The notes under the pieces are model-generated. The model ran no database searches. It was given only the letters and a program-made list of their open reading frames with translations, and was not told the DNA's origin. A program made the position numbers and the translations under genes. Below, piece after piece: positions 1,808-20,222 of a stretch of 64,000 nucleotides of DNA. This DNA is from Clostridia bacterium (GTDB lineage Bacteria > Bacillota > TC1 > UBA5767): positions 1 through 64,000 of the forward strand of contig CP069393.1 in NCBI GenBank assembly GCA_016887505.1. Reading direction: 5' to 3'. Each line of letters opens with the position of its first letter. Within the stretch, counting starts at the first letter, position 1.

Positions 1808-1823
1808 ACAGGAGGTGATAGTT

Positions 1824-2417
1824 ATGAATTACCTAGAAAAAATTGAAGAGTTGATTAAACAGCAAAATGGTACGATTTTAAGTGCTGATCTTGATAAATA
1901 TGGGATACCAAGAAAATACCTTCAAAGATTGATTAATGAAGGTAGGCTAGAAAGATGGGATCGTGGTGTATATGTAGCTGTTGATGCTATTGAAGATGAA
2001 ATGTTTGCAATGCAGAAAAAGTATTCGAAACTAATTTACTCCCATGAGACAGCACTTTTTATGCATGATCTATCAGATCGAACACCATTCGACTATTCGG
2101 CTACGGTTCCTAGTGGGTATAAGGTTGTTTCAAATGTTGCAGACAGATTTAAGATTTACTATGTAAAAAAAGAATTACATGAACTTGGCGTTATATCACT
2201 TAAAAGCTCATTCGGTAATCAGATTAGAGTTTATAATATTGAAAGAACGATTTGTGACATTATAAAGAGCAGAAGCAGAGTGGATATTCAAATCCTGAAT
2301 GAAGCATTGAGACGGTACGTTAAAATAAAATCATCGGATTATTCATTATTAATGGATTATGCGAAAAAACTCAACATAGAGACGGTACTTAAAAATTATT
2401 TGGAGGTGATACTGTGA
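1824..2417 (+). CDS. Type IV toxin-antitoxin system antitoxin, AbiEi family
   Basis: A 197-residue protein. The ATG at 1824 is chosen because GGAGG at 1811-1815 gives 8-bp spacing; an in-frame GTG at 1815 overlaps that site. The N-terminal winged-helix (ILSADLDKYGIPRKYLQRLI, then GRLERWDRGVYV) is characteristic of AbiEi antitoxins, followed by the C-terminal antitoxin domain (YSHETALFMHDLSDRTPF, NIERTICDIIKSRS). It should counteract the nucleotidyltransferase toxin encoded next and repress the operon through the dyad at 1766-1807. Its stop codon overlaps the toxin start (GTGA), the coupling usual for AbiE pairs. Such systems give abortive phage defence and stabilise mobile elements. Confidence 0.88.
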   Translation: MNYLEKIEELIKQQNGTILSADLDKYGIPRKYLQRLINEGRLERWDRGVYVAVDAIEDEMFAMQKKYSKLIYSHETALFMHDLSDRTPFDYSATVPSGYKVVSNVADRFKIYYVKKELHELGVISLKSSFGNQIRVYNIERTICDIIKSRSRVDIQILNEALRRYVKIKSSDYSLLMDYAKKLNIETVLKNYLEVIL

Positions 2418-3235
2418 GTGGAAAAGCGATGAGCTTAAAAGCAAAAATTAGAAATCTAGCCAGAAAAAAAGACATGTCAGCTCAGGTAGTCCTTCAAAAC
2501 TATATGTTTGAACGATTTCTTGAGCGTCTCTCCAAGTCGGCCTATAAAGATAAGTTTATTTTAAAAGGTGGCATGTTGATTGCTGCTCTTGTGGGAATTG
2601 ATAATAGAGCAACTATGGATATGGATGCAACGATTAAGAACTATCCAATCGATAATGATTCCATCACCAAAGCAATTAAAGAAATCTGTAACATTTCAAT
2701 AGATGATGATGTAACTTTTACATTTAATAGTGTTGATGCCATTAGGGATGATGATGCCTATGGTGGTTATCGAGTGGGTATTGTTTCAGAATACGATACC
2801 ATTATTACACCAATGCAGATCGATATTACAACTGGTGATGCCATTACACCTAAAGAAGTTTTATACCTATTCAAAATGATTTTTGAAGATGGAAATATTG
2901 GCGTGTGGGCTTACAACATCGAAACTGTCTTAGCAGAAAAAGTAGAAACCATTTTGAGAAGGGGAGAGCTAAATACAAGACCAAGAGATTTTTATGATGT
3001 TTATATTTTGACAAAAACTCAGAGTTTTGATCTTTTAATTTTTAAAGAGGCCCTTAAATCCACAGCAGCACATAGAGAAACTTCTCATATATTTAATGAT
3101 ATCAGTAAAAGAATCGATGAAATTGAAAATAGTGAAACCCTAAAAAAAAGATGGACCAAGTACACTAAAGATTATAGGTACGCTGAAGATATCGAGTACA
3201 GTCATATCATAGATGCCTTAAGAGCACTGGTTTAA
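2414..3235 (+). CDS. Type IV toxin-antitoxin system toxin, AbiEii nucleotidyltransferase
   Basis: A 273-residue protein of the AbiEii/AbiGii nucleotidyltransferase family (DNA polymerase beta-like fold). Visible motifs are KGGM (51-54), DMDAT (69-73) with the metal-binding acidic residues, EKVETI (175-180) and TRPRDFYD (188-195); these match the family's motifs I-IV. The toxin transfers nucleotides to tRNA or another RNA target, stopping growth when antitoxin is lost. The GTG start at 2414 overlaps the antitoxin stop and has GGAGGTGAT upstream. All catalytic motifs are present, so the toxin looks intact. Confidence 0.88.
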   Translation: MSGKAMSLKAKIRNLARKKDMSAQVVLQNYMFERFLERLSKSAYKDKFILKGGMLIAALVGIDNRATMDMDATIKNYPIDNDSITKAIKEICNISIDDDVTFTFNSVDAIRDDDAYGGYRVGIVSEYDTIITPMQIDITTGDAITPKEVLYLFKMIFEDGNIGVWAYNIETVLAEKVETILRRGELNTRPRDFYDVYILTKTQSFDLLIFKEALKSTAAHRETSHIFNDISKRIDEIENSETLKKRWTKYTKDYRYAEDIEYSHIIDALRALV

Positions 3236-3449: not shown

Positions 3450-5333
3450 ATGGGAAAGGTTAAAGTAATTGAAGCAAGTAAACAGTCGAGAAGACAACGA
3501 GGTAGCTTTATTGAAAATCAATTAAGAGTTGCAGCATATTGCAGGGTTAGTACAGATTCGGATGAACAGAAATTGAGTTATCAGTCCCAAGTGCTTCATT
3601 ATAAACAGTTGGTTGAAACAAAACCTGAGTGGGAATTGGTAGACATTTATGCCGATGAAGCGATTTCTGGAACACAAATCAATAAACGTGTTGATTTCCA
3701 ACGGATGATTAATGATGCTCTAGAAGGTAAAATTGATATGATTATTACAAAGTCAATATCTAGGTTCGCTAGGAATACATTGGATACCTTGAAATATGTA
3801 CGCTTATTAAAGGAAAAGAATGTGGCTATCATGTTCGAAAAAGAAAATATTAATACATTGACCATGAATGGTGAAATGCTGTTGGTTATTTTAAGTTCTT
3901 TGGCGCAGCAAGAGAGTGAATCTATATCAGCGAATGTGACTATGGGACTTAAAATGAAAATGAAACGTGGAGAATTGGTTGGATATAATGGCTGTTTGGG
4001 TTATGATTATGACTCAGAGACTAAAACCATTTCTATTAATGAAGAAGAAGCAGAAATTGTCCGATATATTTTCAGAAGATATGTTGAAGGATCAGGATGT
4101 TTTGTAATCGCCAAAGAACTTACTAATTTAGGCTATAAAACAAATCGAGGAAGTTTAAAATGGCATGAAAGCACGGTTAGAGGTATTATTAAAAATGAAA
4201 AATATAAAGGTGATCTGCTTCAAGGAAAGACATTCACGGTAGATCCAATTACACATAGACGTTTAGATAACATGGGAGAAAAAGAGCAGTTTTATGTTGA
4301 GAACAATCATGATGCCATAATATCTGATGAGATGTTCGAACGTGCTCAAGAAATACTTAGAATGCGTAGCAAAAAGCATAGTAAGAAAAATACCTCTAGG
4401 GAATATAGTAGAAAGCATGCTTTCAGTAGTATGTGTACTTGCGGTTTCTGTGGTGGAACTTATATCCGAAGAATTTGGCATCATGGAACAGATCATGAAA
4501 AACCTGCATGGCAATGTGGAAAAGCAATTAAGCATGGCAGAAAAGAATGCGGGCATTCAAAAGGCATTCATGAAAGCTTTTTAGAAGATGCATTTGTTAA
4601 TGCATATAATAAGATTCAAGAATTAAATGCTACTGACATTGAAGAATTCTTTGAAAATATTGAAGAAGCCCTTGATATAAGCCAACTTAGAGATGAAGTC
4701 AATGAATTGTCATCAAAAATCAAGAAGCTAGAAACTAAATCGCAGACATTATTAGATATGAGATTAGATGGTAAAATAGCCGAAGTAGATTACGACAGAA
4801 AATTCAATATAATAGAAGAAGAACTAAAGTCACTAAGGGATGAAAGAAATGAAAGATACGAAGCACTTCAAGGTGAAGAATCAATTACTACAAGAATTAA
4901 TGAGTTTAGAAAAGTCCTTGCTGAAGATTTAGAGATTACTGAATTTGATCGTGATATTATGGACAGTTTGATTGAAAAAGTTGTCATTGGAGCTACAGAT
5001 GAAGATGGAAATCCCAATCCATATGTAATCACTTTTGTATTCAAAGCAGGGATGAAATTCAATGAAGAATTCTATGAGAAAATAGCTAATCCATCTGGTA
5101 TAATTGAAGAAGGAAAAATGTCTACTTACGCAACAAACGAGAAACAACTAGCGTGTACCTACGCCCTAAACAAGCCATGTGGAGACTATAGTAGCACTAT
5201 ACAAAAAAGACTAATTGTATTTGCCCACATACCGCTAAAAACCAAGCTTTTCATGTTTAAGACTGATATTGCGAATTATCGCAATAAGGAACTGAAAGAC
5301 GAAATCATTGTAAGACTTGGCTTTTGGATGTGA
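3450..5333 (+). CDS. Large serine recombinase / site-specific integrase (first copy)
   Basis: A 627-residue large serine recombinase with AAGGAGG ahead of its ATG. The resolvase-type catalytic domain is at about 27-180: YCRVSTDS carries the nucleophilic Ser34, and TKSISRFARN and LSSLAQQESES are typical of the fold. The recombinase domain (about 190-300) contains GYKTNRGS and GIIKNEKYKGDLL. A zinc ribbon (CTCGFC ... CGKAIKHGRKECGHSKGIHE) and a coiled coil (about 390-470) follow. Such enzymes catalyse unidirectional integration and excision between att sites. It is about the same length as the recombinase at 21892 and collinear with it. The last 60 residues, after CGD, differ completely from that paralogue, as if the 3' end had been exchanged. 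Confidence 0.92.
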   Translation: MGKVKVIEASKQSRRQRGSFIENQLRVAAYCRVSTDSDEQKLSYQSQVLHYKQLVETKPEWELVDIYADEAISGTQINKRVDFQRMINDALEGKIDMIITKSISRFARNTLDTLKYVRLLKEKNVAIMFEKENINTLTMNGEMLLVILSSLAQQESESISANVTMGLKMKMKRGELVGYNGCLGYDYDSETKTISINEEEAEIVRYIFRRYVEGSGCFVIAKELTNLGYKTNRGSLKWHESTVRGIIKNEKYKGDLLQGKTFTVDPITHRRLDNMGEKEQFYVENNHDAIISDEMFERAQEILRMRSKKHSKKNTSREYSRKHAFSSMCTCGFCGGTYIRRIWHHGTDHEKPAWQCGKAIKHGRKECGHSKGIHESFLEDAFVNAYNKIQELNATDIEEFFENIEEALDISQLRDEVNELSSKIKKLETKSQTLLDMRLDGKIAEVDYDRKFNIIEEELKSLRDERNERYEALQGEESITTRINEFRKVLAEDLEITEFDRDIMDSLIEKVVIGATDEDGNPNPYVITFVFKAGMKFNEEFYEKIANPSGIIEEGKMSTYATNEKQLACTYALNKPCGDYSSTIQKRLIVFAHIPLKTKLFMFKTDIANYRNKELKDEIIVRLGFWM

Positions 5334-7187: not shown

Positions 7188-7215
7188 GGCTGTCACGCCC
7201 TACAGCATATACCCA

Positions 7216-7245
7216 ATTATATCACATTCCACTCTCAAAAGTCAA
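7216..7245 (-). promoter_or_regulatory. Possible promoter on the minus strand, reading toward hsdM
   Basis: Reading the minus strand, TTGACT and TATAAT are separated by 18 bp. No open gene follows before the junction with hsdM, so this may be the promoter of a lost phage gene. If active it would give antisense RNA to the hsdM 3' end. Confidence 0.35.
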
Positions 7246-7248
7246 TGA

Positions 7249-7395
7249 GCGGTTTTGAGCCGTGATGCAAACGGCTCAGTGGTAAATAACTACTATAATG
7301 ACAACAGCCGCACAGTAAATCAGACCAACAATAGTCCGAAAGCACTGTCACGGCTGGAGATTTATAGGCAGACGAGGAATGCGGTGGATATTTAA
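7249..7395 (+). pseudogene. Phage tail tape-measure protein, C-terminal remnant (48 codons)
   Basis: An open frame with no start runs from after a stop at 7246 to TAA at 7393-7395. Its last residues, SPKALSRLEIYRQTRNAVDI, match the C-terminal end commonly seen in tape-measure proteins of siphophages of Firmicutes. The rest of that large gene is absent. The next tail gene (Dit) lies at 8697, so the pair marks a prophage fragment. The match is from memory of the family and the sequence is short. Confidence 0.5.
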
Positions 7396-7398
7396 AAG

Positions 7399-8175
7399 TT
7401 AGTGCAGAAATCGAAATCCCATAATAACGACACCAAGCACCACAAGAATAATACCTGTAGCACGATTTAATGTTTTTGGCTTTGCCTTATTTGCAAATAC
7501 TGCCGCAATTCTTGCCCATATCAGCGTAAACACAATGCACAATACCCATGTCAGAATATCCGGTGTTCCGCCAATTGTAAAATGCGATACAGCACCCGTC
7601 AATGCGGTAAAAGTCATAATAAATACACTTGTGCCTACAGCGGTTTTTAATTCATATCCCATAACGCTGGTCAGAATCAGAAACATCATCATTCCGCCCC
7701 CTGCACCAACAAATCCGCAAATAAAACCAATAATAATTCCACAGATAATGGACTGTATAGCACGTTTTTTCGCTGATGTTTCCGCCATAGATTCTTTAGT
7801 GTTCATAACAGGACGAACAATAAATTTTATTCCAAGCAGAAACGTCATAAATACCGAGAAACCGCCCATTGTTGCGGATGGCAGAGTACTTGCCACATAG
7901 CTTCCGACAACTGTAAAAACAAGCACACTTGCCATCATAATTAATCCGTTTTTAATGTCCAGATTCTTATTTTTATGATAAGTATAGGCGGAAACTGCAC
8001 TTGCCAACACATCAGAAGAAAGTGCAATACCGACTGCCATATAAGGGTCAATACCTAAAAAAGTAATCAACATCGGACTGATAACGGCGGCAGCACTCAT
8101 TCCTGCAAATCCTGTTCCAAGTCCTGCACCCATACCTGCAAAAAATGTAACCAGAATAGTCATTATTGTTTCCAT
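7399..8175 (-). CDS. TauE/SafE-family membrane transporter
   Basis: A 258-residue protein with about eight membrane segments in the TauE/SafE pattern: two repeated halves, the first starting GMGAGLGTGFAGMSAAAVI SP and the second GFICGFVGAGGGMMMFLIL. The family exports or imports small sulfur-containing or organic anions (sulfite, sulfoacetate); the substrate here is unknown. It is translated just downstream of a MarR regulator, their stop and start touching (TAATG), so the two form an operon. The pair stands in antisense orientation between two phage tail genes, 4 bp from the tape-measure stop, and resembles morons (cargo genes) in prophages. A different TauE lies at 47726. Confidence 0.85.
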   Translation of the reverse strand: METIMTILVTFFAGMGAGLGTGFAGMSAAAVISPMLITFLGIDPYMAVGIALSSDVLASAVSAYTYHKNKNLDIKNGLIMMASVLVFTVVGSYVASTLPSATMGGFSVFMTFLLGIKFIVRPVMNTKESMAETSAKKRAIQSIICGIIIGFICGFVGAGGGMMMFLILTSVMGYELKTAVGTSVFIMTFTALTGAVSHFTIGGTPDILTWVLCIVFTLIWARIAAVFANKAKPKTLNRATGIILVVLGVVIMGFRFLH

Positions 8176-8609
8176 TATTCTTTTTCCTCCAAAATTTCAT
8201 CTGAATTTTTACTGATAACCTGCATAACTTCTTCAAAAGCTTTCCTCATATTATCATCAATATGGACAAACAGCTTTTCAAAAAACATTTTTTGCAATTG
8301 CTGACCTCGTTCTATGATTGGTTTGGCTTTCTTTGTACACAGTAATTCTGTTTTACGCCTGTCACCTTCTACAGCCTGTCTTGTCAAATAGCCTTCCTGA
8401 ACCAGACGTTCAACATTTACCGATACCAGATTTGCTTTGATATGGCGTATCTCTACAATATCTCTTGCATTTTTGTATTTCGGATTATTTCCAAGAAACA
8501 TCAGAATATCAAATGCAGTTTGCGACAAACCCAGTTCTTTACAAAGTGGCTTACACACTTTACTGTATGCAAGTGAAATTTTTCTGGGGATTTCAATACT
8601 GAAGTTCAT
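8175..8609 (-). CDS. MarR-family transcriptional regulator
   Basis: A 144-residue winged-helix protein: the recognition region is RHIKANLVSVNVERLVQEGY and the wing is LTRQAVEGDRRKTELLCT, a typical MarR wing with the DRR motif. Flanking helices at both ends form the dimer interface. It has AGGAGG before its ATG. It is the first gene of a two-gene operon with the TauE-like transporter and has a strong promoter with an overlapping dyad at 8630-8678, so it probably represses itself and the transporter until a ligand binds. Confidence 0.88.
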   Translation of the reverse strand: MNFSIEIPRKISLAYSKVCKPLCKELGLSQTAFDILMFLGNNPKYKNARDIVEIRHIKANLVSVNVERLVQEGYLTRQAVEGDRRKTELLCTKKAKPIIERGQQLQKMFFEKLFVHIDDNMRKAFEEVMQVISKNSDEILEEKE

Positions 8610-8629
8610 ATGTCCTCCTGTTCTTTTTT

Positions 8630-8678
8630 GAATAGTTCAATTTTGAAGTATTCTATCATATTATCATCTTTTTGTCAA
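8630..8678 (-). promoter_or_regulatory. Promoter and operator of the marR-tauE operon
   Basis: On the minus strand TTGACA (8673-8678) and TAGAAT (8650-8655) are separated by exactly 17 bp. An imperfect palindrome (GAATA-GTTCA at its left end, TTGAA-GTATTC at its right end, 8630-8653) overlaps the -10 and the start point, the usual place for a MarR operator. Confidence 0.7.
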
Positions 8679-8696
8679 TGAAAAGCAGGTGAAATT

Positions 8697-9548
8697 TTGT
8701 TCTACACTTTAATTCTTGAAAACGAAGCAGGTCAAAAAATCGGCCTGTCCAAAACTGCAAACCGATATATGTTCTCCAAAATCAAAGGACTTGATCCGCC
8801 AACAGGAACAATCAGCACTTCAAATTATGCAGGAATGAACGGCAGCTATCTGAATAACGCATTCATCGAAAAGCGGAACATCGTCATTACCTTTCAGATG
8901 CGTGGCTTTGATGTGGAACTTCGCAGGCATGAACTATATCGTGTGGTCAAGCCGTCACGCTACATCAAGATATACTACTCCACAAAAAATATTTCTGTGT
9001 ATGCTGAGGGTATTGTGGAAACCTGCGAGGTGGAGAATTTTGAAAAGCTGACCAATGGGCAGATTTCCATTCTCTGTCCCGATATTTACTGGTACTCCAC
9101 TGAAACGCAGATTGCAGAATATTCCCGTGTCAGAGGTGCATTTCATTTTGTCTGTCCTGACAATGATGAGCCTTTTCCGATTGGTGCATATAATACGCAG
9201 GATATGATGACCATCAATAACAGCGGTGATGAGGTCGGATTCACCCTTGAAATCAGCGGAGGACCTGCGAAAAATCCGACTATTTACAACGCTCTGACGG
9301 ACGAATATATGCAGATTTCAGGCGATATTCAAAAGGGAGATGTTATCACCATAACTACAAAAACGGGCAACAAAACCGTTCTTCTGGAGCGTGAGGGCGT
9401 TGTGACCAACATCATCAACCGCCTTGTTTCCGGGTCAACCTGGCTGAATCTGAAAACGGGCGAAAACAAATTTTATGTGACGGCATCGGAGGGACTGAAC
9501 CGCATCAAAGTTCGCCTGATACACCGAAATGCGTACTTAGGGGTGTGA
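8697..9548 (+). CDS. Phage distal tail protein (Dit-like)
   Basis: A 283-residue protein resembling siphophage distal tail (Dit, phage tail family) proteins. Supporting features are the N-terminal LILENEAGQKIGLSKT, GLDPPTG followed by TSNYAGMNGSY, the NIVITFQMRG strand, and the C-terminal galectin-like part with GFTLEISGGPAKNPTIYN. Dit forms the hub ring joining the tail tube to the baseplate. The TTG at 8697 is used with AGGTG upstream; no better start is visible. It is followed at once by a truncated Gp37-like gene, as in phage tail operons. GC content is higher than in the flanking hsd genes, which supports a separate origin. Confidence 0.72.
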   Translation: MFYTLILENEAGQKIGLSKTANRYMFSKIKGLDPPTGTISTSNYAGMNGSYLNNAFIEKRNIVITFQMRGFDVELRRHELYRVVKPSRYIKIYYSTKNISVYAEGIVETCEVENFEKLTNGQISILCPDIYWYSTETQIAEYSRVRGAFHFVCPDNDEPFPIGAYNTQDMMTINNSGDEVGFTLEISGGPAKNPTIYNALTDEYMQISGDIQKGDVITITTKTGNKTVLLEREGVVTNIINRLVSGSTWLNLKTGENKFYVTASEGLNRIKVRLIHRNAYLGV

Positions 9549-9550
9549 AA

Positions 9551-9715
9551 ATGCAGATTGAAATTTACAATATGACTGTCTTGAATGATAAACTGAATAT
9601 TTCACTTGAGGCTGTCTGCGACAGTTTTTCTTCGCTTTTATGGGATATTGAATATTACAAATGCGGTGCTTTTGAAGTGTACATTGCTGCATCTCCCCGA
9701 AATATTGAAATTTGA
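9551..9715 (+). pseudogene. Phage Gp37-like baseplate protein, N-terminal remnant
   Basis: An ATG 2 bp after the Dit stop opens a 54-codon frame (MQIEIYNMTVLNDKLNIS ... GAFEVYIAASPRNIEI). It resembles the start of the siphovirus Gp37-like (ReqiPepy6 type) proteins that follow Dit in many Firmicute phages; those are several hundred residues long. The frame stops where sequence resembling the 3' end of hsdS begins, so this is the right border of the prophage scrap. The family assignment rests on position and a short match. Confidence 0.5.
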
Positions 9716-9782
9716 AGTTCAAAAGTCACTAGATGAAAACAAGATATTATTTGATTCATTGATGCAAGAGTACTTCGAGTAA
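9699..9782 (+). pseudogene. hsdS: 3' remnant of hsdS (specificity subunit)
   Basis: An open frame of 27 codons ends at TAA 9780-9782 and reads, near its end, KSLDENKILFDSLMQEYFE. Heptad-spaced leucines and a terminal F(D)SL-MQ-x-YF are typical of the last helix of HsdS subunits. It sits between hsdM and hsdR, where hsdS belongs. Nothing else of HsdS (two target-recognition domains, about 400 residues) is found between 7188 and 11511. The phage Gp37-like remnant overlaps its beginning in another frame, so the junction is at about 9700-9715. Confidence 0.55.
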
Positions 9783-9785
9783 GTA

Positions 9786-11435
9786 GGGGCTGCTCAACAA
9801 CTTAAGCAATCCTATCTATAACTTTATCCACAGGCAAATCAAGTTCCGAGTCCGACGGACGTCTGAAAAAGATCAAAATCGCCGAATTTTGCACAGAGAT
9901 CACCGCGAGCATCTGATGGATGTTCTTGGTAAGGACTGTAAGTGCAATTGTTGTTCTTATGGATTCTTCAGATCGTTCTTTTACAAGATCAAGACCGAAT
10001 CTGCGTTTGAGCACCCCAAAAGCACCCTCTACTTGATTCCTAATGGCTGCATCATTGCGCTCTGTGATACGTCGCTCTTTTAACTTTTCTGGATCCTTGG
10101 GTTTACGTCCCAAACATGGCCCAGACAGCCGTATACCGCGTTTTTTTAGCCAAGTTCGATTTCTCCGATTGCGAAATATTGTATCTGCTTGAATAGCTTC
10201 TGGATAATGACCAAATCGCTTGTAATACAGCTCAACGGATTGGATCAGATATATCCCTTCGTTAAAGTTATCAAAACTCATGTAGTCTATAAGAACATAA
10301 CCATCGACTACACTGATGAGTAGTTTTACACCAAACTCAACACTCTGGCCAGCTTTGCCCCTAATGATAGGACGAACGTATGGATGGGCTATACTCACAA
10401 TTCGATCATCTACTCGATGTGTTTGATTTTCATACATCTGTTTTTGTTGAATGTAGATCGTTCGAATTATCTTGAGGTTTTCTTTAAAGCGTGAACTCAG
10501 TAGTTCTAGGCGTTCTGGACTTTGTTCAATATAATAATCCACAATTTTCAAATCTCTGTTTATGTAACTGAGTTGCTCACCAATAGATTTTTGAATTGCT
10601 GCGATTCCTTTTTTCCTTTGAAGTTCAAGACCAAGAAAATCTTTGCGAGCATTATTTCTATATGTACGTGGTTTCGCCATTATCCCCACATCAGGTGCAT
10701 GCAGAGCATCTATGATTTTTTCTAGCTGTTCTCTGCATTCATTTAAAAGGCGATGGTCTGTTGGATAACGAATATCTACTGGAACACAAGTGGCATCTAA
10801 GATCAAATTTCCTTTGTTTTTTATCTTAGGGTTCAGGCGTATCTCCTTTGTCTAGATTTTCATCATCAGTTGATTTTGTTTCCTTTTCTCTTGCAAGCTG
10901 CACCGTTTGGATAACAAGATCTTCATTGACTTTTTCAATCAGTTCGCTGGATAAACGATCTCTAAAATAAACCATTGTACTCGCTGTAAAAGGTTGTTCA
11001 CCATAGCTGATTTCAACGTCTACAAGATACTGCATCGCTGGGTTTTCTGCAATCATTTGTACAGTTTCTCTGTCGCTCAGATTTAGTGTTGCCTTTATGA
11101 GAAGTGCGCCAAGTGCCGTTCGGACAGAGTACGCCCGTCTGCCATTGTCTGGGTTCTTCAACCGACTTGCGTATGCATCTTCGTACTCCCACCAGGGAAC
11201 GAGATCGGCGATTTGAACCCAGCGATTATCCTTTGGTAATCTGATTTGTTTCATCTTAAAAACGGCATCATCCATACGTATTTGGCTTGCTGATTTTTTA
11301 TACATTTTGTCCTCCAGAATCTATGTAACTGCAACTTGTTCGGTTGATTAACTTGCACTTTATAGATACCCACTTCGGACGTATATATTGAAATTTCAAC
11401 GTTATTGGATGATTATTATCTTATTGAGCAGGCCC
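9786..11435 (-). mobile_element. IS5/IS1182-like insertion sequence inserted at the hsdS stop codon
   Basis: A 1650-bp element with imperfect terminal inverted repeats: GGGGCTGCTCAACAA at the left end and, read inward, GGGCCTGCTCAATAA at the right. The 6-bp sequence TAAGTA occurs directly outside both ends (9780-9785 and 11436-11441) as target duplication. The left copy contains the TAA stop of the hsdS remnant, so the element inserted after the hsdS 3' end was in place. Confidence 0.8.
9802..11305 (-). pseudogene. IS5/IS1182-superfamily DDE transposase, split by one frameshift
   Basis: Two adjacent minus-strand frames make one transposase. The N-terminal part (11305-10826, 159 codons) has the DUF772-like helical domain (YSVRTALGALLIKATLNLSD, FTASTMVYFRDRL). 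The C-terminal part (10825-9802) has the DDE domain (LILDATCVP, AIQADTIFRNRRN, RNQVEGAFGVLKRRFGLD). They join if one base is skipped at CCC-TAA-G (10831-10825 on the minus strand), since the second frame continues as AAG with no other break. It is either a disabled gene or a +1 programmed frameshift, because Pro-tRNA on CCC can slip to CCT before a stop codon. Ribosome site AGGAC precedes the ATG. Confidence 0.75.
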
Positions 11436-11511
11436 TAAGTATATGTTAATTACAATTACGTATAAGCAATGATTATTTAGACTTTTATATTTAAAATGGG
11501 GGTGAGAATAT

Positions 11512-13914
11512 ATGTCGAAATTATATTCTGATTGGCTAAAAATAGATCTTCATATTCATACAGATTTTAGTAGGAAGACAAAGAACAATGATTATAAAGG
11601 CGTATTTTTTATTGATAGTTTGTACAACAAGTTAAAAGAACAAGATGTTTCAATATTTTCGTTAACTGATCACAATATTATTAATATCGATGCGTACAAA
11701 GAATATTATGAGAAATATAATAGTGCTACAGATCCTTTGCTTCTTGCGGGAGTGGAACTAGATATTTTAGGAAGTTCAACAACTTATCATTCGCTTATTA
11801 TATTTAATTGCAACGATTACGATGGCCTTAAAGCTATTCATGATAGCCTTGAAGAGAAATATGCTAAAAAAAATTGTGATGTGTTTAAACGGATATTAAC
11901 ATTTGATGATATTATTTCTGCCTTTGATGAGTTGGACTACTTTTTTATCCCCCATGCAGGAAATACATCAAGTATAATTGACGCTTTTAAGGGTGATATT
12001 GCTGCGGCGCAGAAAATGTTAATTTTACTCCAAAGTCCAATGGAAAAGGTTCAGGAGAAAAGAAGACAAATATACAATGAGCATTTTGATGTAAGGTTAA
12101 CTGAAGCCTTTCGAAAAAAGGAGGATTTTGCGTATCTAGAATTCTCGGATAACCACAATATCGAGAAGTATCCATGTCGCCATATGGGAGATCAAGGAGA
12201 TCATGAGTTCTATTATATAAAAGGTAGCAAGAATTATGAGACGCTTCGGCTTTCTTTCATTGATCCAAAATCCCGAATAAAAACCACTCAAGAATTTCAG
12301 GAGATAAAAAATCCAAGAGATTATTTGAGAACGCTTAATATTAAGGGTAATACACTTTTAACAGATAAAAATTTGAATTTTAGCCCGCACTTGAATGTTA
12401 TTATTGGGGGACGTTCTAGTGGTAAGAGTTTAATGATGGATATTCTTAAGCGATCTATTGACGTTTTAGAATCAGAAGATAAGTATAATGTAGCGATTGA
12501 AGGCGCTACGACTACAGTAAGTTCAAGTTTAGATGCTATGCCTAAAGCAGTGACCCATCTAAATACTGATATTCTACAGATTAATCAAGGCGCAATAGCT
12601 AACTATTTTGAGAGAAATGAGCTGTCTAGCTTAGCTAGAAAAGCGGGTAAAATTGAAGAATACCAGATTGCAAAAGCAAAATTTAACGAAATCCATACTG
12701 AATTAGATAAAAGGATTTCTGATTTGCATCAAGTCTATGAAGATATTCATGAGATAAAGCCAGACCAAGCAATTATTTTGCATAATAATACTATAGATAA
12801 ACTCTTAAATTCTGAGTATCACTTAAAGATGAATAAGGATAAGTTGATAGAGTTAACTTTTTCTTCAGAAAAATTTGATGAGACAATAAAAGTAGTTGAA
12901 GATATTGAAGTATTAATCTCAAAGCTGAATAAAGCTCCAACTATCGATATTGAAGAAACTGAAGTTGCAATAATTGAAGGATTTGTAAGTTTACTTTCAA
13001 CGATGAAAGGCAAACAGAAGAAGAAGAAACTACTGCATGAATATATGACAAAATTTATTGGAAATGCACACAATATTGTGTCTAGTGCGAATGACAAATT
13101 AAATGCTGCTGGAAAAGAAAAGGCTTTAGCTGAAAAGGGTAAGCGAGAGATTATAAACAAAGTAAAGGTCCATTTTAAAGCTTTTGCTGAACTAAATTGG
13201 AGTGTAAAGAGTACATTATCATTAAAGTTAGACCATACTGAGTTAATCGATTTAGACGAGGACAGCAAACTTTGTATAGAGCTTCAGCCAGAAAAGGAAA
13301 TTAAGGAAAGTATACTTGATGGCATTAAGGGTTATAGCAAGGATGACTTATACTATTCGCTTGTTGAACTCTTGTATAACGAAACAAGTCTGAAAAATTA
13401 TGGAGATAATTCAGCTGATAATTTTGGTAAAAAGATCAAGAGTCAAATAAAGGCATTAGCAAGTTGCTTTGATAAACTAACTGACTATCTAGAATATCGG
13501 GATGGAACTACATCAAAGAGTAATAGTCCTGGTTATAATTCGGAAAAATACCTGAAAGTAGTATTGAATAATCCTAAATGTGGATTAGTAATTATTGATC
13601 AACCTGAGGACAACCTTGGAAACAAGTTTATTTCTGATCAATTAGTTGAATTAATAAGAAAAATTAAGTTTAAGAAGCAAATTTTCTTGATAACACATAA
13701 CCCAGCAATTGTTGTCTACGGAGATGCAGAATCTATTATTATTGCAGAAAACCTTGATAATAGGATTTCTTATAAGCAAGTGAAGCTCGAAGATATTGAG
13801 TCACAGAAAATAATTTGTGAAACTTTGGATGGTGGAGAATATATTTTTGATAATCGATCAAGAAAATACAATATACAACGACTATTACAGGAGGCTGGGA
13901 ATGGAAAAAACTAA
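11512..13914 (+). CDS. PHP-domain plus SMC/ABC-type ATPase, TrlF family
   Basis: An 800-residue protein. The N-terminal PHP phosphoesterase domain shows DLHIHT (12-17), SLTDHN (50-55), GVELD and the metal ligand region IPHAGN (about 146-151) and FSDNHN. From about 285 an ABC-type ATPase begins: Walker A IIGGRSSGKS (297-306), a long coiled-coil middle (about 380-560), and Walker B LVIIDQPEDN with an ITHNP switch histidine near 690-735. This layout is the TrlF family seen in restriction and defence loci; its action is not established, but PHP-ATPase pairs are thought to be nucleases controlled by DNA-sensing ATPases. It lies between hsdM and hsdR and overlaps the next gene by 14 bp, so it is part of the operon. 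GGGGGTGAG precedes the ATG. Confidence 0.82.
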   Translation: MSKLYSDWLKIDLHIHTDFSRKTKNNDYKGVFFIDSLYNKLKEQDVSIFSLTDHNIINIDAYKEYYEKYNSATDPLLLAGVELDILGSSTTYHSLIIFNCNDYDGLKAIHDSLEEKYAKKNCDVFKRILTFDDIISAFDELDYFFIPHAGNTSSIIDAFKGDIAAAQKMLILLQSPMEKVQEKRRQIYNEHFDVRLTEAFRKKEDFAYLEFSDNHNIEKYPCRHMGDQGDHEFYYIKGSKNYETLRLSFIDPKSRIKTTQEFQEIKNPRDYLRTLNIKGNTLLTDKNLNFSPHLNVIIGGRSSGKSLMMDILKRSIDVLESEDKYNVAIEGATTTVSSSLDAMPKAVTHLNTDILQINQGAIANYFERNELSSLARKAGKIEEYQIAKAKFNEIHTELDKRISDLHQVYEDIHEIKPDQAIILHNNTIDKLLNSEYHLKMNKDKLIELTFSSEKFDETIKVVEDIEVLISKLNKAPTIDIEETEVAIIEGFVSLLSTMKGKQKKKKLLHEYMTKFIGNAHNIVSSANDKLNAAGKEKALAEKGKREIINKVKVHFKAFAELNWSVKSTLSLKLDHTELIDLDEDSKLCIELQPEKEIKESILDGIKGYSKDDLYYSLVELLYNETSLKNYGDNSADNFGKKIKSQIKALASCFDKLTDYLEYRDGTTSKSNSPGYNSEKYLKVVLNNPKCGLVIIDQPEDNLGNKFISDQLVELIRKIKFKKQIFLITHNPAIVVYGDAESIIIAENLDNRISYKQVKLEDIESQKIICETLDGGEYIFDNRSRKYNIQRLLQEAGNGKN

Positions 13915-17200: not shown

Positions 17201-17563
17201 GATATTAAATACCTAGAAAAAGTATTATGGCAAGAGCTAGGAACGAAAGATGACTATGTCAAAGAATTTGGTGATGAACCACTACTTAAACTGGTGAGTA
17301 AAATTGTAGGATTAGACCCTCAAGCAGCCAATGAAGTGTTTTCAGAGTTCTTATCGGACGAAAGTCTTAATATCAATCAAATGGAATTTGTGAAGTTGGT
17401 GGTCAATTATATGATTAAAAACGGTAGCTTAGACAAACGGGTTCTCAATGAACATCCCTTTAATAAGCGTGGCAACGTTATGCATTTATTTGATGGTAAG
17501 CTTGATGTGGCAAAACGTATTATTGGTGCTATTGATCAGATTAATGGTAGGTTGAGTGTCTAG
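14240..17563 (+). CDS. hsdR: Type I restriction endonuclease subunit R
   Basis: An 1107-residue HsdR. The first 130 residues are a DUF4145 domain, found in a subclass of HsdR. The PD-(D/E)XK nuclease follows: VDYVLYAD (Asp243) and AVIEAKK (Glu258, Lys260), with the QAQRYA motif. The superfamily 2 translocase has ATGSGKT (371-377), IIIDESH, LTATPKS and MIGRGTRL; the C-terminal part (about 890-1107) is the HsdM/HsdS-binding helical region. It pumps DNA using ATP and cuts far from the site, but only as part of an HsdM-HsdS-HsdR complex. The gene is intact, while hsdS upstream is destroyed, so restriction should be silent. GGGGGAATACC precedes the ATG. Confidence 0.93.
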   Translation: MCYNFDFLKKEDKYKDFTYACIEAEKSLVVSYASTAILARRALELAVKWVFSYDHELDAPYQDNLASLIHDYRFKGIIDTKLFPMITYIQKLGNKAVHSATPISRDQAVLALRNLFEFISWIDYCYSDEYKEITFDESLLGDNEKERKTRDELKDLYDRLGSKDRKLEEIIKENEALRRENAAKRVDNKKNRDFKVDEISEFKTRKMYIDLEIELSGWTIGKDCLEEVEVDGMPNQVKIGFVDYVLYADNGKPLAVIEAKKTSVNPRMGQIQAQRYADCLEKEHKFRPMIFYTNGFEYYLWDDRSYPERLVSGIYTKEELEWLHFKRQNKASLKDPIINDDITNRHYQKMAITAVCDTLDKGNRKALLVMATGSGKTRTAISIVDVLIKRGWVKNILFLADRTALVKQAKKNFKALLPELSLCNLLDSKDNPESRMIFSTYPTMMNAIDDVKNKRDQKLFTSGHFDLIIIDESHRSIYKKYQDIFNYFDAILLGLTATPKSDLDKNTYTIFELENNVPTYAYELGEAIEDEYLVPYHTIETKMKFLEQGIHYDDLTEEEKELFEETFDDDVKEISGEALNSFLFNDNTIDTVIQELMEKGLKVEGGDKLGKTIIFAKNKKHADFIVKRFNALYPEYKGDFAKPIYTGINYVESTMDDFEVKNKLPQIAVSVDMLDTGIDIPEILNLVFFKKVRSKTKFWQMIGRGTRLCEDLYGVGIDKESFRIFDYCGNFEFFRTNKNGKEAKMMKSLTENLFNIRIGIIKELQNLDYQTDEYINHRKALIEAILKEVKAVDETKFNARMKLQFLHKFNQEIAFESLSDADVRELEEHVAPIVPAIDDDELAKRFDYLMYTIEYADLKRVPASKPKNRVVTTAEKLTFKGTIEKVRKQEALIYKVQTNEHWEEADIFDHEEVREAFRELIKFLDSKSGEIYYTNFTDEIMESKESPGEYSVNDMQSYRKKVNEYLMEHQNDLVIYKLRNNNPLTEEDIKYLEKVLWQELGTKDDYVKEFGDEPLLKLVSKIVGLDPQAANEVFSEFLSDESLNINQMEFVKLVVNYMIKNGSLDKRVLNEHPFNKRGNVMHLFDGKLDVAKRIIGAIDQINGRLSV

Positions 17564-17576
17564 AGGAGGTGATTCT

Positions 17577-18497
17577 ATGGCAATACCAAAATATCATGAA
17601 TTTATGAAACCCGTATTGGAACTATTGAAAGATAATCAAGTCCATAAGCGTGTGGACATGTATAAGGTTTTAGCAATGCAGTTTCAATTAACTGAAGCTG
17701 AACTTGAAGAGTGGCTGCCAAGTGGCAAGCAATTGGTTTATAAAAACAGAATAGGCTGGGCACTGACTTATCTGAAAAAAGCTAAAGTAATTGAATCACC
17801 TGCTAGAGCCAGTTTCAGAATTACTGAACTTGGACATAAGGTGCTTGAAGAAAATCCAGAGGTTGTGGATCAAAATTATCTCAAGAAGTTTGAAGGTTTT
17901 CAAGATTTCATAAACAGTACTTCGGAAAATACCCTTCTTGATAATGATATTTCAGATATCGGTAGTGATGAGTCGCCCCAAGATTTATTGGATAGAGCTT
18001 ATAAGACCATATCAAACACGTTAGCTGATGATCTATTAATAGAAGTCATGAACCAGTCACCGGACTTCTTTGAAAAACTAGTGGTGGATTTGTTGGTTTC
18101 TATGGGCTATGGTGGCAGTAAGATTGAAAATAGTCAAGTTCTTGGAAAATCTGGCGATGAAGGTATTGACGGCGTCATTAAAGAAGATAAATTGGGTTTT
18201 GATAAGATTTATATTCAAGCGAAACGTTGGGATACTGAAAAAACAGTTGGAAGACCTGAACTTCAAAAGTTTGTTGGTGCATTAACCGGACAAGGCGCAT
18301 CAAAAGGCGCTTTCATAACAACAGCAAGTTTTACCAAAGAAGCTAAAGAGTATGTAAGCAAGCAACACGCTTGCAAAATTGTCTTAATAGACGGCAAATC
18401 TTTAGCAGCCCTTATGGTTGAACACGATCTTGGTGTTTCAGTAGAAAATACCTATTTGATTAAAAAAATTGACACAGATTATTTTAACGGAGAATAA
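17577..18497 (+). CDS. Mrr-like type IV restriction endonuclease
   Basis: A 306-residue Mrr-type nuclease. The ATG at 17577 is used because AGGAGGTGAT lies just before it. The N-terminal winged-helix Mrr_N domain spans about 1-90 (VHKRVDMYKVLA, AKVIESPARASFRITELG). The catalytic domain (about 165-280) has FFEKLVVDLLVSMGYG, GDEGIDGVI with the catalytic Asp, and IYIQAKRW with the Gln-x-Lys of the Mrr nuclease, then GKGAF-type strand GASKGAFITTASF. Mrr enzymes cut methylated foreign DNA. It starts 13 bp after the hsdR stop, so it is the last gene of the defence operon; a strong terminator follows. This gene needs no HsdS and may remain active. Confidence 0.9.
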   Translation: MAIPKYHEFMKPVLELLKDNQVHKRVDMYKVLAMQFQLTEAELEEWLPSGKQLVYKNRIGWALTYLKKAKVIESPARASFRITELGHKVLEENPEVVDQNYLKKFEGFQDFINSTSENTLLDNDISDIGSDESPQDLLDRAYKTISNTLADDLLIEVMNQSPDFFEKLVVDLLVSMGYGGSKIENSQVLGKSGDEGIDGVIKEDKLGFDKIYIQAKRWDTEKTVGRPELQKFVGALTGQGASKGAFITTASFTKEAKEYVSKQHACKIVLIDGKSLAALMVEHDLGVSVENTYLIKKIDTDYFNGE

Positions 18498-18689: not shown

Positions 18690-19646
18690 ATGGAGCATGA
18701 AAATGAACTAAAACTCATCAACATGAACGATGTTGAGGTAACAGAAGTGAAATGGTTATGGAAGCCCTATATTCCCATTGGAAAAATCACCATTATTCAA
18801 GGTGATCCAGGGGAGGGCAAGACTACCATGATTTTGGCAATCGCATCAGCAATGACGACTGGTGCTATATTGCCTTTAAGTGAGGAGGCACTAGAACGAC
18901 GCAATGTTATTTATCAGACAGCAGAAGATGGCTTAAGTGACACCATTAAACCAAGATTATTGGCAGCAGGTGCTGATTGCAACAAAGTAATCGTTATTGA
19001 TGAAAGTCATAAGGAGCTGACTTTATCAGATAAGAGAATTGAAGAAGCCATTATAGAGACGAGTGCTCAGCTACTGATCATTGATCCATTGCAAGCTTAT
19101 TTAGGTTCTGGTGTGGATATGCATAGGGCAAATGAAATCAGACCCATTTTCAAAAATCTTTCTAGTGTTGCAGAGAGGACAGGCTGTGCCATTGTCATTA
19201 TTGGTCATATGAATAAGGCTGGTGGTACTAAAGGGCTTTATCGTGGACTGGGTTCTATTGATATTACAGCTGCCGCTAGGAGTGTTCTCTTAGTAGGGCG
19301 TGTAAGAGCTGACCCATCTATTCGTGTAATAGCTCAGATCAAATCAAGCTTAGCACCTGAAGGAATGAAAATTGCCTTTAAGCTGGATGAAGAAAATGGC
19401 TTTAAGTGGATAGGAGAATACGACATTGAGTTAGATGTATTACTTGGTGGTAGTTCAACGGAAAGTGTTCTAAAACGAGCAGAAAAGCTGATTAAAGAAG
19501 TTCTTGATGATGGTGCTAAAGCCAGTGATTATGTTGTTGAAAGAGCAAAAGAGAAGCAGATATCTCAAAGAACACTGAAGACCGCTAAAAAGAATCTTGA
19601 AGTGAAATCTATTAAAACAAAGGAAGGGTGGAAATGGCAGTTATAA
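18690..19646 (+). CDS. RepA-like AAA/RecA-fold ATPase of a mobile element
   Basis: A 318-residue protein with RecA/DnaB-type ATPase motifs: Walker A GDPGEGKT (38-45), QTAEDG, Walker B LLIIDPLQAYLG (about 126-137), and IIGHMNKAGGTKGLYRGLGS, typical of the RepA/AAA_25 group of hexameric helicases in plasmids and integrative elements. The C-terminal 70 residues form a winged-helix (LDDGAKASDYVVERAKEKQI). It probably acts in replication or processing of the excised element. AAGGAGG precedes the ATG; three loop-sharing hairpins lie upstream and the coiled-coil HTH gene and MobC follow in the same direction. Confidence 0.8.
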   Translation: MEHENELKLINMNDVEVTEVKWLWKPYIPIGKITIIQGDPGEGKTTMILAIASAMTTGAILPLSEEALERRNVIYQTAEDGLSDTIKPRLLAAGADCNKVIVIDESHKELTLSDKRIEEAIIETSAQLLIIDPLQAYLGSGVDMHRANEIRPIFKNLSSVAERTGCAIVIIGHMNKAGGTKGLYRGLGSIDITAAARSVLLVGRVRADPSIRVIAQIKSSLAPEGMKIAFKLDEENGFKWIGEYDIELDVLLGGSSTESVLKRAEKLIKEVLDDGAKASDYVVERAKEKQISQRTLKTAKKNLEVKSIKTKEGWKWQL

Positions 19647-19650
19647 AATT

Positions 19651-19698
19651 AAGGGTGCAAGGGAGCAATGCTTATAACCTTTGCACGTTTGCACCCTT
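19651..19698. repeat. Inverted repeat between the RepA-like and HTH genes
   Basis: AAGGGTGCAA (19651-19660) and TTGCACCCTT (19689-19698) are perfect complements; a third partial copy (CCTTTGCACG) lies between, allowing two alternative hairpins before the next ribosome site. Confidence 0.5.
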
Positions 19699-19715
19699 GA
19701 AAGGCAGGTGAAGAT

Positions 19716-20072
19716 ATGTTAGGCAAATTATTTGGTGTAGAAGAAGTAAAAGCAGAATTGCAAGAAGCGAGGGAAGAGATCCAAGTACTTGAACATAAGC
19801 TTGAGCTCAAGGAAAAGGTCATTAAGCAACTTGAAGATGCTGTGAGGATATTGGAAGAGAATATTAAATCACTGCTTGATGAAAATGACCAATTAAAGGC
19901 ACGTCCAGATCATTTTGGACGAACATCAAGAGCATCTGGTGAACATATGCGACTTCTTAAAATGTATCAGTATAATCAATTATCCTATCAGGAAATTGCA
20001 GATAAAATGACGGAATATACCGGTGAGAAGTGGTCCAAAAGCACGGTTCATTATTTGCTGACCAAGTCATAA
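19716..20072 (+). CDS. Coiled-coil protein with C-terminal helix-turn-helix
   Basis: A 118-residue protein. Residues 8-65 are a coiled coil (LEHKLELKEKVIKQLEDAVR and onward). The last 45 residues look like a small HTH of the resolvase/recombinase-associated type: LLKMYQYNQLSYQEIADKM followed by KWSKSTVHYLLTKS. Proteins of this design lie between the RepA-like gene and the mobilization genes in related clostridial elements; no function is established. GGCAGGTGAAGAT precedes the ATG. It probably binds DNA near the oriT-like region that follows directly. Confidence 0.7.
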   Translation: MLGKLFGVEEVKAELQEAREEIQVLEHKLELKEKVIKQLEDAVRILEENIKSLLDENDQLKARPDHFGRTSRASGEHMRLLKMYQYNQLSYQEIADKMTEYTGEKWSKSTVHYLLTKS

Positions 20073-20095
20073 TGCCTTTATCTTCAATATCCTAG

Positions 20096-20222
20096 AATAA
20101 ATCCGATAGTGTCTAGTTTGTTACTGGACGGAAGGAAAAGGTAGAGGATTTATTTACCCTGTTTTAACAGGGGCAAGCTTCCACTTTGTACAGCCAAAGT
20201 GTTTAATAGTGGGCATGCCCAC
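20096..20222. other. oriT-like region with four nested or adjacent inverted repeats
   Basis: Between the HTH gene and mobC are: AATAAATCC/GGATTTATT (20096-20104, 20146-20154); CCCTG/CAGGG (20157-20161, 20168-20172); CACTTTG/CAAAGTG (20182-20188, 20195-20201); and the palindrome GTGGGCATGCCCAC (20209-20222). Clustered inverted repeats just upstream of mobC are where origins of transfer usually lie. No nick site can be assigned by eye. Confidence 0.5.

Follow-up and report, generated by a model that had tools for sequence, protein, structure and literature searches.

Probable loss of hsdS from a type I restriction island of a Clostridia bacterium through replacement by a siphophage tail fragment

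Introduction

The hsdRSM locus of group A streptococcus has been naturally inactivated by insertion of a prophage, and the strain concerned lacks m6A (PMC8597746). In restriction-deficient, promiscuous strains of Staphylococcus aureus, most of the mutations are stops or frameshifts in hsdR (4% of strains), and loss of function of hsdS was reported in 0.9% (PMC13216270). Here we describe a type I locus in the genome of a Clostridia bacterium in which nearly all of hsdS has been replaced by phage DNA. The analyzed stretch, referred to below as the window, comprises the first 64 kb of a 2.56-Mb genome assembled as a single contig. The original prediction, made without database searches, held that hsdM and hsdR are complete in an otherwise intact locus, and that the place of hsdS is taken by the C-terminus of a tape measure gene, a TauE-MarR operon, a Dit gene, and the start of a Gp37-like gene.

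Results

Restriction genes of the window

Both the HsdM methyltransferase subunit and the HsdR motor/nuclease subunit of a type I system are present in the window, and their predicted completeness was borne out (Table 1); internal stops were found in none of hsdM, hsdR, trlF, and mrr. Compared with the nearest intact relative (see below), the dN/dS values were 0.047 for hsdM, 0.038 for hsdR, 0.151 for trlF, and 0.028 for mrr; most of the changes confined to the window in hsdM and hsdR are synonymous, a pattern similar to that in the lineage of the relative. A full HsdS with target-recognition domains is absent from the locus, where the last ~25 codons alone are left, and no HsdS of the same family is encoded elsewhere in the genome. 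The TrlF and Mrr genes expected downstream are indeed intact, with the reservation that the TrlF protein scored 254 bits against a curated cut-off of 350 bits (NF045780); as this is below the family threshold, "TrlF-like" is the safer name. The sole literature find on TrlF in type I loci names a gene of the Photorhabdus temperature-restriction operon and offers no support.

Upstream of the restriction island, a complete AbiEi-AbiEii pair lies at 1815-3235, and a serine recombinase gene occupies 3450-5333. The last ~51 codons of the latter fall in sequence common to the relative (its positions 8134-9605), where this sequence is located directly downstream of a 23S rRNA methyltransferase-like (RumA-like) gene. 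The island may be situated at an integration hotspot.

Table 1. Features of the restriction island and the foreign segment, in window coordinates
Feature	Position	Strand	Remarks
hsdM, intact, 492 aa	5709-7187	+	no internal stops
Left breakpoint of hsdS loss, last bases colinear with the P. aestuarii locus	7188-7189		DNA alignment to that locus
Left-edge segment with no match to hsdS or to the identical phage contig	7190-7275 (upper limit 7299)		~86-110 bp
Tape measure gene, 3' end	about 7276-7395	+	matches phage loci
TauE/SafE-type exporter gene, phage cargo	7399-8175	-	
MarR-family regulator gene, phage cargo	8175-8609	-	
Distal tail protein (Dit) gene, complete	8697-9548	+	
Next tail gene, 5' fragment, first ~54 codons	9551-9713	+	phage homology stops at 9713
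hsdS remnant, last ~25 codons and stop	9704-9782	+	alignment to P. aestuarii locus, genome search
TAAGTA, left copy of 6-bp target duplication	9780-9785		
IS5-type insertion sequence	9786-11435	-	transposase in two frames (10826-11305, 9802-10806)
TAAGTA, right copy of 6-bp target duplication	11436-11441		
TrlF-like PHP/AAA ATPase, intact	11512-13914	+	
hsdR, intact, 1107 aa	14240-17563	+	no internal stops
Mrr-like type IV restriction enzyme, intact	17556-18497	+	

An intact relative and the ancestry of hsdS

Searching species genomes with HsdM identified 80 loci, the nearest of which is that of Proteiniclasticum aestuarii SCR006 (L022). It supplies the intact relative that the original prediction had proposed to look for: its genes are arranged xre-hsdM-hsdS-trlF-hsdR-mrr, in the same order as in the window, and the encoded proteins are 94-98% identical to their counterparts (97% for HsdM, 94% for TrlF, 97% for HsdR, and 98% for Mrr). 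The P. aestuarii locus has an intact hsdS of 397 aa at the place of the phage-derived segment, carries neither the phage insert nor the insertion sequence, and includes a 425-aa gene before mrr, whereas the window is the opposite on all of these points. This gene lies at 18845-20122 between hsdR and mrr of the relative and is missing from the window (17563-17573); the close hsdR-mrr spacing of the window is also seen in the relatives L017 and L018. Given the missing gene and the insertion sequence, the locus cannot be called otherwise intact, as it had been.

An hsdS gene of at least 300 aa was found near hsdM in 66 of the 68 HsdM relatives whose loci extend at least 1300 bp beyond hsdM, the exceptions being L045, with only 171 aa, and L074, with no hsdS. 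Therefore, hsdS is ancestral and was lost in the window, and the possibility that it was never present between hsdM and trlF is ruled out. The gap between hsdS and hsdR differs among relatives: an 86-aa remnant of a TrlF-like gene occupies it in L017 (12667-12924), and different genes, for example one of 512-597 aa plus one of about 313 aa, are found in L015, L016, L018, and L023, which marks the gap itself as a variable cargo site.

Breakpoints and the hsdS remnant

The DNA alignment to the P. aestuarii locus breaks off at 7189, 2 nt past the hsdM stop, resumes at 9704-9785, and goes on beyond the insertion sequence, from 11436. Over the 82 bp of 9704-9785, identity to the 3' end of the P. 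aestuarii hsdS is 87.8% (E 2e-21), and the remnant protein is LKFEVQKSLDENKILFDSLMQEYFE in the window versus LKLEIQKSLDGNKILYDSLMQEYFG in the relative. A search of the whole genome with the P. aestuarii HsdS recovered 9699-9776 independently at 77% identity, so that a chance likeness is ruled out and the predicted C-terminal remnant is real. Homology to phage ends at 9713 and homology to hsdS begins at 9704, an overlap of ~10 bases that places the crossover within this short stretch.

At the left edge, the segment 7190-7275 contains a GC-rich hairpin and gave no match in the genome itself, in the loci compared here, in plasmids searched in distant mode, or in viral contigs searched by exact pattern. 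With these ~86-110 bp matching neither hsdS nor the phage contig, the history of the replacement may have involved more than one step.

Phage origin of the insert

Approximately 2.5 kb of foreign DNA separates hsdM from the hsdS remnant, and its predicted gene content was confirmed by phage matches. The end of the tape measure gene and the Dit region match, in the same order, the viral contigs L095 and L096 and Ruminococcus phage NatCom_23091, and all three align at both ends of the insert. The Dit protein is 93% identical to that encoded on L095. Positions 7300-8349 (1050 bp) are 100% identical to the metagenomic phage contig IMGVR_UViG_3300035041_000014 up to the end of that contig, and in a base-by-base alignment every difference falls within 7275-7299. 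The identity shows that the insert arrived recently and, together with intact hsdM and hsdR genes changed mostly at synonymous positions, fits a recent loss of hsdS. The same contig carries an identical TauE gene and runs on into tape measure and other tail genes, which identifies the TauE-MarR pair as phage cargo rather than a separate insertion into the host.

Colinearity and high identity to phage genomes thus define the insert as a fragment of a siphophage tail module. Its content is limited to a single complete tail gene, fragments of two others, and two cargo genes. It does not qualify as an integrated prophage, as it has no integrase or attachment sites and its set of phage genes is incomplete. 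Neither a second copy of the insert nor a donor prophage was found elsewhere in the genome, and a search for the donor in 10 genomes of the class gave no real match. NatCom_23091 and its IMG/VR relatives (L092, L095, L096, and L101) share the layout of tape measure, reverse-strand cargo, Dit, and next tail gene, but their cargo differs from that of the window, comprising a hypothetical gene, TraX, or a nuclease; among these relatives, TauE and MarR of identical sequence occur on L101 alone, a contig that stops before Dit.

The gap between the tape measure and Dit genes was compared in 19 distinct donor-related phage loci. Reverse-strand genes fill it in 16 of them (L092, L111, L112, L113, L117, L118, L121-L125, L128, L137, L140, L142, and L176), whereas the remaining three (L115, L116, and L120) have almost nothing there, with a gap of 25-27 bp. 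The encoded cargo includes TraX, a protein with an HSDR_N_2 nuclease domain, a PDDEXK_4 nuclease, a Shedu-like protein, an RpiB-like isomerase, a chromate transporter pair, a flavin reductase, and weak matches to Imm33 and SMI1/KNR4. The gap thus looks like a conserved reverse-strand cargo slot of donor-related siphophages. A literature search of partial coverage returned nothing specific to this slot at the level of titles and abstracts, and the slot may still have been described.

A separate insertion sequence

The IS5-type element between the hsdS stop and trlF has the transposase domains, terminal inverted repeats (GGGGCTGCTCAA and TTGAGCAGGCCC), and duplicated target expected of an insertion sequence, and the target TAAGTA occurs once in the P. 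aestuarii locus. The intact duplication indicates an event separate from the phage replacement. The element is present as a single copy in the genome, which rules it out as a high-copy agent.

Discussion

The best explanation for the locus, and in our judgment a very probable one, is that hsdS was lost through illegitimate replacement by a siphophage tail fragment. The starting state would have been a horizontally acquired type I island of the order xre-hsdM-hsdS-trlF-hsdR-mrr. Part of the tail operon of a siphophage, spanning the 3' end of the tape measure gene, the TauE-MarR cargo pair, Dit, and the beginning of the tail gene that follows, would then have displaced nearly all of hsdS by illegitimate recombination. 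The analysis shows that the ancestral locus was intact, where both breakpoints lie, that the insert is phage-derived and recent, that no same-family HsdS exists elsewhere, and that the insertion sequence arrived independently. Illegitimate recombination accounts for all features except the left-edge segment.

We consider it unlikely that selection favored the replacement, with the loss of restriction or the gain of TauE-MarR helping host or phage and phage DNA serving as a silencer of restriction loci. The swap does take out one gene almost exactly and leaves its neighbors intact, the cargo genes are intact as well, and restriction-deficient S. aureus strains are common, with a trade-off proposed there (PMC13216270). 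Against this, the event is recent and stands as a single example with no recurrence among the 68 relatives, and the insert brings no integrase or other phage mechanism. Of the earlier suggestion that phage DNA silenced the system by recombination, the replacement of hsdS by phage DNA stands, whereas active or selected silencing finds no sign in a lone case with no integrase or attachment site and ~10 shared bases at the right junction; illegitimate recombination is the simpler account. It is very unlikely, too, that the cargo slots of phages trade DNA with the defence loci of bacteria, such that the recombination habit that moves reverse-strand cargo, nucleases and a Shedu-like protein among it, into and out of the tape measure-Dit slot also put the phage fragment over hsdS and gave up a defence gene for cargo.

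An assembly artefact fusing phage and bacterial DNA would be compatible with the exact 1050-bp match to a metagenomic contig and with the unexplained left edge. Such a chimera is very unlikely, however, in a genome assembled as one contig, with the 3' end of hsdS still in place on the far side of an insert that occurs nowhere else in the assembly.

The genome also carries an apparently complete second type I system at ~204.8-215 kb (within 198000-216000 of the contig). Its hsdS encodes two domains and is accompanied by a pair of partial spare modules, one of them inverted, and by a gene that by its sequence resembles a tyrosine recombinase; this arrangement suggests phase-variable specificity. 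The presence of these HsdS modules raises the possibility that the second system serves the HsdM and HsdR of the window in trans and keeps it active. However, its HsdM is ~28% identical to that of the window over partial length, and its HsdS is at most 28% identical to that of P. aestuarii, in one domain only. Since complementation is one of the criteria that define type I families (PMC3874165), assembly of such distant subunits is not expected, and rescue in trans appears highly improbable. The whole-genome search with the P. aestuarii HsdS returned the remnant and that single 28% domain match only, in keeping with the earlier expectation of a silent locus. Removal of hsdS by a deletion adjacent to the insertion sequence is barely credible: the element lies only 3 bp beyond the hsdS stop, but its target duplication is intact and its target occurs once in the P. 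aestuarii locus, and it makes no contact with the phage junction.

Under illegitimate replacement, the locus is most likely silent, given the known need for HsdS: HsdM and HsdR devoid of their shared recognition subunit would be expected neither to methylate nor to cut. The TrlF-like protein and Mrr may still act, and TauE-MarR may be expressed as a passenger. The window offers a natural knock-out of a type I system that is well resolved, since the HsdM of an intact relative is 97% identical and the phage source is represented by an identical sequence. It makes it possible to test cleanly whether HsdM, HsdR, the TrlF-like protein, and Mrr keep a role without HsdS. Of wider use than the knock-out is the tape measure-Dit slot, a predictable place to seek new phage-borne genes for host benefit and defence.

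In our view, the event is an isolated accident, broadly of a known type, in which the damage is real and clearly traceable. As inferred for the window, type I function has been naturally lost in promiscuous S. aureus strains, although mainly through stop or frameshift mutations in hsdR (PMC13216270). The group A streptococcal hsdRSM locus is likewise a case of phage DNA within a type I locus abolishing its function (PMC8597746). There, a prophage interrupts the locus, whereas in the window a 2.5-kb tail fragment has replaced one gene; the unusual point is that a fragment without integration genes swapped out that gene almost exactly.
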